Shown here: positions 1,853-25,042 of the stretch, in pieces | Layout: each line of letters begins with the position of its first letter | Position numbering within the stretch: position 1 is the stretch's first letter | The notes under the pieces: model-generated | Seen by the model: the letters and a program-made list of their open reading frames with translations, nothing else | Told to the model about the DNA's origin: nothing | Databases searched by the model: none | Translations under genes and position numbers: made by a program | Assembly: GCA_004195045.1 (NCBI GenBank) | Contig: SGBC01000002.1 | Coordinates: forward strand, 372,001-436,000 | From: Candidatus Acididesulfobacter guangdongensis | GTDB lineage: Bacteria > SZUA-79 > Acidulodesulfobacterales > Acidulodesulfobacteraceae | DNA length: 64,000 bases | Reading direction: 5' to 3'

Positions 1853-2014
1853 TTAACCCAACTTCACCATAATTATCAGCAACATATTGATATTGATATT
1901 ACTATATTTATAGGGCAATAAGAATGCCTATAGGGACTATAAAATAAAAAATAAAATGCAATAATATTAATGGGTTATAATTTTAGAATAATAAAAGTGG
2001 TGAAGTTGGATTAA
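1853..2014 (-). repeat. MITE-like element, copy A
   Basis: A 162-bp non-coding element bounded by TTAA on both sides. The terminal inverted repeats are TTAACCCAACTTCACC on the left and GGTGAAGTTGGATTAA on the right. It matches the second copy at 3653-3814 in reverse-complement orientation along its full length, at roughly 85-90% identity by eye. No coding capacity is seen. It ends 2 bp from the RNase G stop codon at 2017-2019. TTAA may be a target duplication or part of the repeat. Confidence 0.8.
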
Positions 2015-2016
2015 TC

Positions 2017-3543
2017 CTATTCTATCTCATATGATTCAGGATGAAAACTATCCTGCATTTTAAATATTATTTTTTTGTTTATTTTTTTTTCTAATTTTTC
2101 AATATTAGCTTCTTCTTCATATATTTTGTTCATAACTTGCGGATGGACAATTACCGTTATTTTTTTAGATCTTGTTTTTTTAGATGTTTTTAAAATTTTT
2201 CTGAATATTTCGAAACAAATTGTTTGAGATGATTTAATCAAACCGTTTCCTTCGCATAGCGGGCAATTTTCCATGAGCATACTTGAAAGGCTATTTCTCA
2301 GTCTCTTCCTTGTCATTTCTAAGAGTCCCAGTTCCGATATTTTATTGATAGTAGTTCTGACCCTGTCGTTCTTCAGAGCTTCCTCTAATGTGTGATAAAC
2401 TTTTTCCCTATTTTCAATTTTTTGCATATCTATAAAGTCAATAATGATAATGCCGCCTATATTTCTAAGTCTGAGCTGGTAGGCAATTTCTTTAGCCGCT
2501 TCAAGATTGGTTTTTAATATTGTATCCTCAAAATTTCTTTTCCCCACATATTTGCCTGTATTAACATCAATAGACGTTAAGGCTTCGGTGCTTTCAATGA
2601 CGATGTAGCCGCCGGATTTTAACCATATTTTTTTATCGAGAGCTTTATAAATTTCATCTTCTACATCGTAATATTCCAATATCATCTGGGGTTTATCGTA
2701 TAATTCCACCCTATTTTTAAATTCAGGAGATTGAATATCTAAAAAGTTTATAATTTTGTCGTATTCTTCTTTATTGTCAACTATAACATTATCTACGCTA
2801 TTATTGAGCAGATCTCTTATTGCTCTCAGCGAAATGCTTAAATCTTCATGGATCAGCGCCGGCGCTTTCGAATCTATTTTATCCTTATATATATTATTCC
2901 ATAAATTTACAAGAAATTTTATATCGCGTTCTATATCAAGTTCGCTCGTATTTTCGGCAGCTGTTCTTATAATCAGACCGGCTTCTTCAGGTTTATATTG
3001 CATAGCAATAGATTTTAGTCTTTTTCTTTCAGATTCATTTTTGATTTTCCTGGAAATGCCTACATGAGGCGAAGTAGGGAGATATACAAGGTATCTTCCC
3101 GGGAGAGAAATATGGCTCGTAACCCTTGGTCCTTTGGTTTTAACAGGCTCTTTCGCAACCTGCACAAGTATTTCCTGATTCTTTCTCAGAAGTTCATCAA
3201 TACTGGGCATATTTTTTTCTTTTTTTCTTTTTTTCTTTTTCTTTGGCGTAAAACTCACATCAATATCATCGTTATTATCTTCATCTCCGTCAAAAAAATC
3301 ATAATCTGTTATATCGATATCAAAAAAATCTCCGGCATATAAGAAAGCCGATTTATCATACCCGATATCTATAAAAGCTGCTTGAATTCCGGGCAATATT
3401 TGCATAACCTTGCCTTTGTAAATATTTCCATGTCTGGCAGAATTAGATTTCCTTTCTAAATAAAAATCTACAAGCTGTCCGTTTTCTAAAAGAGCAACCC
3501 TTGTTTCGTAATCATCTTTGTTTATTATAAGCTCGGTAGACAA
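2017..3543 (-). CDS. rng: Ribonuclease G (RNase E/G family)
   Basis: Endoribonuclease of the RNase E/G family, acting on rRNA precursors and mRNA 5' regions. The 508-residue protein begins with the usual MSTELIINKDDYETRVALLENGQLV and an S1-like domain (GNIYKGKVMQILPGIQAAFIDIG, residues about 40-65). The catalytic part keeps both metal-binding aspartate motifs, SIDVNTGKYVG and IIIIDFIDMQ, and the zinc-link CPLC. An acidic-then-basic insert (about residues 75-115, including KKKKKRKK) interrupts the S1-like domain and is longer than usual. Length fits RNase G rather than RNase E. It stands alone between two inverted MITE-like copies. Confidence 0.93.
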   Translation of the reverse strand: MSTELIINKDDYETRVALLENGQLVDFYLERKSNSARHGNIYKGKVMQILPGIQAAFIDIGYDKSAFLYAGDFFDIDITDYDFFDGDEDNNDDIDVSFTPKKKKKRKKEKNMPSIDELLRKNQEILVQVAKEPVKTKGPRVTSHISLPGRYLVYLPTSPHVGISRKIKNESERKRLKSIAMQYKPEEAGLIIRTAAENTSELDIERDIKFLVNLWNNIYKDKIDSKAPALIHEDLSISLRAIRDLLNNSVDNVIVDNKEEYDKIINFLDIQSPEFKNRVELYDKPQMILEYYDVEDEIYKALDKKIWLKSGGYIVIESTEALTSIDVNTGKYVGKRNFEDTILKTNLEAAKEIAYQLRLRNIGGIIIIDFIDMQKIENREKVYHTLEEALKNDRVRTTINKISELGLLEMTRKRLRNSLSSMLMENCPLCEGNGLIKSSQTICFEIFRKILKTSKKTRSKKITVIVHPQVMNKIYEEEANIEKLEKKINKKIIFKMQDSFHPESYEIE

Positions 3544-3652
3544 AAAAACCTCTTAATTTATATTATATTTATATTATAAATATTAAAATTCTATATACAT
3601 TCTAACATAAATGTTTATTTAAATAAATAAGTTAAATAAATTAATCAATCAC

Positions 3653-3814
3653 TTAACCCAACTTCACCGCTTTTATTATTCTAAAATCATAACCCTTCAA
3701 TATTATTACATTCTATTTTTTATTTTATAGTTCCTGTAAGCATTTCTATTGCCTTATAAATATAGTAATATCAGTATTAATATATTGCCGATAATTATGG
3801 TGAAACTTGGTTAA
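3653..3814 (+). repeat. MITE-like element, copy B
   Basis: Second 162-bp copy of the element at 1853-2014, in opposite orientation, again TTAA to TTAA with termini CCCAACTTCACC and GGTGAAACTTGG. The two copies bracket rng. The rest of the space up to 4093 is AT-rich and shows nothing I can name beyond the ribosome site of the next gene. Confidence 0.8.
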
Positions 3815-24911: not shown

Positions 24912-25006
24912 ATAATTTTAATTTTAAAAATTTTTATTGCATAACATCGTATAATTTCCATATAAAAAATGAGAAATAGGAATATAAACGGTTATTAGAC
25001 TTTACT

Positions 25007-25042
25007 GGTGAAGTTGGATTTAGATATCGGTTAAACTTGGTT
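25007..25042 (+). repeat. Partial MITE-like ends
   Basis: GGTGAAGTTGGATTTA (25007-25022) and GGTTAAACTTGGTT (25029-25042) both match the right terminal repeat of the elements at 1853-2014 and 3653-3814, in the same orientation. The body of the element is missing. It lies between the micro-membrane gene and kdpA, in the probable transcript. Confidence 0.6.

Follow-up and report, generated by a model that had tools for sequence, protein, structure and literature searches.

Two inverted MITE copies beside a ribonuclease gene of Candidatus Acididesulfobacter guangdongensis are probably separate insertions, with an IS1634-type element as likely mobiliser

Results

A ribonuclease gene between two inserts

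The window analysed here is a stretch of 64,000 nucleotides (bases 372001-436000 of contig 2) from the 2.2 Mb, five-contig genome of Candidatus Acididesulfobacter guangdongensis. Near its start a ribonuclease gene lies between two inserts, A (1853-2014, plus strand) and B (3653-3814, minus strand), each of 162 nt, 88% complementary to one another and spaced 1638 nt apart. The features discussed below are as follows.

1853..1856, no strand: TTAA target duplication of insert A, left copy (a single TTAA at the empty sites of relatives G001 and G003)
1857..2010, plus strand: MITE copy A, 154 bp, TIRs at 1857-1868 and 1999-2010 (HMM E 1.8e-41)
2011..2014, no strand: TTAA target duplication of insert A, right copy (empty-site comparison)
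2017..3543, minus strand: Rne/Rng-family ribonuclease, 508 aa, start TTG (NCBIfam TIGR00757, 530.5 bits, cut-off 326)
3653..3656, no strand: TTAA target duplication of insert B, gene side (empty sites TTGA in G001 and TTAG in G003)
3657..3810, minus strand: MITE copy B, 154 bp, inverted relative to copy A (HMM E 7.9e-36)
3811..3814, no strand: TTAA target duplication of insert B, far side (empty-site comparison)
24914..25023, minus strand: relic right end of an IS1634-family element (83% identical to another relic of the same genome at contig 1, 600942)

An earlier note on this DNA had described two 162-bp elements in opposite orientation around the gene, and its coordinates proved right; insert A is 2 bp from the ribonuclease stop codon and insert B 109 bp from the start codon. 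It had also named the gene as RNase G; the Rne/Rng family assignment stands by TIGR00757, but the narrower ribonuclease G model scores 516, below its cut-off of 594. The 16-bp ends that it reported, TTAA(C/T)CCAACTTCACC, are exact at 1853, 1999 and 3653, while the fourth, at 3799-3814, has three mismatches. Their TTAA, however, is target rather than element, and the element proper is therefore 154 bp long (1857-2010 and 3657-3810), with the imperfect 12-bp TIR CCCAACTTCACC on both copies. No ORF of at least 80 aa lies inside the 154-bp MITE. The right end of copy B is towards the ribonuclease gene start. With one mismatch the end pattern also occurs at 25007-25022; taken alone it is only marginally commoner in the window than chance (five matches against 1.94 expected), whereas the 162-nt match and the 39 matches in the genome are far beyond chance expectation.

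The ribonuclease gene keeps the same flanks and relative orientation in all six same-genus relatives (G001-G006), and the ribonucleases of G001 and G003 are 99% identical to that of the present genome. Read by eye, copy B has on one side a promoter-like block belonging to the ribonuclease gene and on the other a block close to the divergent gene; relatives that lack B conserve both blocks. A terminator-like hairpin on the plus strand in the 3' end of the ribonuclease gene (2037-2055), kept in relatives, points towards thiC/ftsB-like genes.

Copies of the family

BLAST with insert A returned 39 matches in its own genome, and a profile built from 27 matches found 38 copies, 27 of them full-length, in the loci fetched from that genome. 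A search for the ends elsewhere in the genome, which the earlier note had proposed, thus yields dozens of copies. The sequence is therefore not unique to this locus; uniqueness was what the note had named as refuting its reading. The median nearest-neighbour identity of 0.90 and the 0.947 of the most similar pair indicate that the copies are not fresh.

Among the 61 genomes searched, a multicopy family is clear only in this genome, in G002 (Candidatus Acididesulfobacter diazotrophicus AP1, grouped in the same genus) and in G006; G003 has a single copy, which is diverged, and the remaining matches are short. Exact or near ends across the seven same-genus genomes number 29 in our genome, 28 in G002, 54 in G006 and one in G004, with none in G001, G003 or G005. 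Of the 28 end matches in G002, 27 were covered by fetched stretches, which hold 20 copies, and 20 stretches of G006 hold 23, the latter family looking young (median pairwise identity 0.94). None of the 81 copies sampled lies inside a called ORF. Tandem copies are co-directional with transcription in 34 of 53 cases (p 0.053), and convergent gaps outnumber divergent ones 19 to 7 (p 0.029), but we give these p values no weight since they rest on a rough ORF caller, lack a gap-length background and leave out two copies of our genome at locus edges. An AT-only block, TTATAATTTTAGAATAATAAAAG, is conserved at 0.94 in copies of our genome against 0.81-0.89 elsewhere. An outward promoter there was set aside and, as the promoter scan finds nothing at the block, AT mutational bias may account for its conservation.

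When flanks were compared (38 copies of our genome, 20 of G002 and 23 of G006), three insertions looked common to G002 and G006 by the flank on either side, and no copy of our genome was clearly at the exact site of a sampled copy of either. One lies in a gap that also holds a MITE in G002 and G006, but a conserved block separates the two positions and the orientations are opposed, which makes it a separate event. A block before a transporter-like gene (locus L005, 1640-1740; contig 1 of our genome near 680200) has MITEs on opposite sides in different species; it resembles a phosphate (Pho) box promoter, and short similar blocks recur in G001, G003, G004 and G005. The flank comparison, the empty sites described next and the near-absence of the family from G001 and G003 together suggest that it spread in the present lineage after the split from these two, loss in G001 and G003 being a possible alternative.

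Target duplications and empty sites

Site A is empty in G001 and G003, where one TTAA stands in the same gene order, and site B is likewise empty, with a single TTGA in G001 and TTAG in G003. A comparison of rng loci without the elements, which the earlier note had suggested for TTAA duplication, thus finds single TTAA-like sites in both relatives. Even at an E value of 10, the MITE profile has no match in any of 11 ribonuclease loci from relatives, two of them truncated by contig ends.

Both ends could be read in 63 full-length copies (23 of 27 in our genome, 18 of 18 in G002 and 22 of 23 in G006). The flanking 4-mers are identical in 41 of them (11, 15 and 15, respectively) and the flanking 5-mers in none; the 22 copies with unequal 4-mers reflect decay or mis-set ends. 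Direct 4-bp duplications are thus found in three species and are sometimes other than TTAA (CTAA, TTAG, TTGA, TTAT and ATAA), which is why the four bases are assigned to the target and not to the element. The description of the inserts as MITE-like and TTAA-bounded is borne out by their shortness, TIRs, target duplications, empty sites and dispersed copies, and by a related autonomous element in G015, with fragments in G002.

A likely partner element with a transposase

An intact element of 2,036 bp in G015 (bacterium YP1.bin11, of another genus in the same family) has CCCAACTTCACC at both ends and TTAA outside each, and encodes a transposase of 588 aa that scores 254.9 bits with the NCBIfam IS1634 model NF033559 (cut-off 100). 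In G002 the element is fragmentary, one right end adjoining a DDE_Tnp_1/IS1634-family transposase fragment, and the draft assembly of G006 has only fragments of a matching transposase. In a genome of candidate division KSB1 the same ends, flanked by TTAT and TTAA, enclose an element whose transposase is 42% identical. Sharing its ends and target duplication with the MITE, the 2,036-bp IS1634-family element is the likely mobiliser.

Our own genome retains only broken right ends of this element; its left end was not found there, nor was an IS1634-family transposase in two protein searches and a family search. The transposase gene with matching ends that the earlier note had asked about is accordingly present in relatives but absent from this genome, for which reason the MITE copies here are probably stranded. 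The loose ends that it placed at 25007-25042 do include an end match, which however is one relic end of a larger, different element (24914-25023). G002 has a similar end in some eight places; that several of them fall at the ends of contigs is what a collapsed multicopy repeat would give. In the window, small kdpF-like ORFs precede the relic and a kdpA-like gene follows it directly (names assigned by eye).

Other candidate partners were rejected. The IS1634-type transposases of G004, G006, G018 and G027 have other ends (CCTGACTTTGACACC), and none of the DDE_Tnp_1 loci has a matching end pair, one of them (L125) being a fragment of the partner itself with one end. A scan of viral contigs with the transposase gave no relative, and a match in a Desulfohalobium plasmid had no convincing ends. 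Five Spirochaete contigs (L201, L208, L236, L238 and L241) carry TTAACCCAACTTCACCA, several near contig ends and some followed by a CACTAC motif; they are possible relatives of the partner element. At L037 (2470-3009) there is an apparent direct-repeat array ('SQSPHSGHLFLF' repeated in the translation), possibly a CRISPR array.

Relation of the MITE to the partner element

Close to each end of the partner element stands a copy of GTAGTCCCC(C)ATA, the two in direct orientation. Counted from the left end, the first begins at base 108 in G002 and at base 110 in G015; the outer edge of the second is some 68 bases short of the right end in either genome. Fusing the G002 ends at the GTAGTCCCC repeat gives 175 bp, which aligns along its length with the 151-bp MITE consensus, where a GTAGTCCCC repeat is found at base 71. 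With the TIR left out, the score of the MITE left arm against the element right arm is reached by none of 500 shuffles, and that of the MITE right arm against the element left arm by one of 500, for G002 and G015 alike; outside the TIR and the shared repeat, the latter similarity is weak. Against the right arm of the G002 element, too, the MITE right arm outscores every one of 500 shuffles, through an AT-rich stretch, so that it is chiefly the place of the repeat that decides which arm is which. The MITE resembles what a deletion between the two GTAGTCCCC repeats of the partner element would leave.

Discussion

We consider it highly probable (about 0.93), judging from sequence comparison, that A and B are independent insertions of a non-autonomous 154-bp MITE with the TIR CCCAACTTCACC and a 4-bp TTAA-type target duplication. 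Their opposite orientation and 1.6 kb spacing might instead suggest that the two MITEs moved the ribonuclease gene as a pair, as the earlier note had proposed, and a composite transposon of the IS1634 family with convergent ISs is in print: Tn6097 (PMC3281130) consists of two ISPfe2 copies and likewise has IS1634-family ends in opposite orientation around cargo. In Tn6097, however, autonomous ISs act as one unit, while here the two MITEs are bounded by separate TTAA duplications and no single duplication bounds the whole. The gene, moreover, lies between the same flanks and in the same orientation from G001 to G006, with single empty sites beside it in G001 and G003, so that separate duplications and empty sites contradict a composite move. 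A and B are also only 87% identical (0.873), whereas A has at least six closer relatives in the family, and its identity to a copy on contig 1 is 0.926. That the pair moved the gene is thus extremely unlikely.

It is slightly less improbable, though still very unlikely, that the inserts set ribonuclease expression through a promoter, a terminator, stems in the mRNA or inversion of the gene. Insert B is close to the start codon and is one of only two among 36 classed copies of our genome in a divergent gap, and, whichever strand is read, insert A gives an RNA with a better fold than its shuffles (z -2.9 and -3.9). The stems that the earlier note had foreseen are to that extent supported, but the fold gain comes largely from the terminal repeats pairing and the promoter scans do not suggest regulation: promoter-like sites between 1700 and 4100 are at chance (16 against 15.1), promoter-like and terminator-like sites being no commoner than in shuffles, none of the former is at the gene-facing end of B, and the sole terminator-like site (2037-2055) is outside both elements. 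The promoter-like block between B and the gene is kept in relatives without B, and the inversion of rng that the earlier note had envisaged is seen in none of the six. Nor is so close a pair surprising, as 38 copies placed at random in 2.2 Mb would give at least one pair within 1.8 kb with P 0.68 and an inverted one with P 0.44. The palindromic ends and the absence of sampled copies from called ORFs would also suit a structured repeat of the REP, ERIC or riboswitch-like kind, maintained by the host and not a transposon; the precise 4-bp target duplications, the empty sites, the same ends on an element with a transposase and, again, the origin of the fold gain leave this reading with almost no probability.

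Under the preferred reading of independent insertions, an ancestral copy of the partner element would have lost its transposase gene by deletion between the direct GTAGTCCCC(C)ATA repeats, and an IS1634-family transposase would then have moved the resulting MITE in trans by cut and paste. The family may have expanded once this lineage had separated from G001 and G003, and would now, with the transposase gone, be stranded. That the ribonuclease gene was struck on both sides was presumably chance: one copy landed at its 3' edge and the other between two divergent promoters, both putative, and insertion may have been tolerated at these places. Points that weigh against this reading are the 22 copies with unequal flanking 4-mers, the weak similarity between the MITE right arm and the element left arm, and the young-looking family of G006, which is accompanied by mere fragments of the matching transposase.

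MITEs of IS1634 elements are already published; what is new is the present family, with its 4-bp rather than 5-6-bp duplication, and no description of it was found in the IS1634 or Acididesulfobacter literature among the matches listed, nor a paper linking the IS1634 family with TTAA. The Methanosarcina MITEs with the IS1634-family partners ISMba11 and ISMac10 (PMC3852290) are likewise short, multicopy and non-autonomous with inverted ends. They differ in measuring 247 and 249 bp, with inverted repeats of 20 and 18 and duplications of 6 and 0, as against 154 bp, a 12-bp TIR, a 4-bp duplication and a bacterial host here. According to PMC2266710, IS1634-family elements are 1500-2000 bp long, with ends C-----YT and target duplications of 5-6 bp. 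The partner element fits by its ends (CCCAACTT) and by a transposase that passes the NCBIfam model; its 2,036 bp are just above the published length, and the duplication of 4 bp (41 of 63 MITE copies) departs from the published 5-6 bp. We call it IS1634-type by its transposase, with a departing duplication, and keep the label because the same source reports atypical lengths in IS1549 and IS1634 themselves (PMC2266710) and because two other elements have 4-bp duplications. These two, annotated as IS1634 on plasmids of Segatella copri and Bradyrhizobium sp. Ash2021, have ends CCCACATTGCAG and CCCAACTTGCGCAG and duplications TTAA and CTAA, though their transposases are only about 27% identical to that of the partner.

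A choice of TTAA or CTAA targets by a bacterial DDE transposase would be piggyBac-like. More tentatively, and with the odds against it, these elements might belong to an IS1634-type lineage extending across phyla, with CCCA-type ends and an exact 4-bp TTAA/CTAA target, that has repeatedly shed MITEs through deletion between its subterminal GTAGTCCCC repeats. If so, such MITEs would have seeded regulatory gaps in the genus, that of the ribonuclease gene for example, and the gap of the transporter-like gene with its phosphate-box-like promoter would have been struck separately in different species. The analysis connects a MITE family from an uncultivated acid-mine lineage with its likely transposase, and the exact 4-bp TTAA-type duplication refines the published account of IS1634-type elements. 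The striking inverted pair is explained by ordinary means and is not to be taken for a device acting on the ribonuclease.
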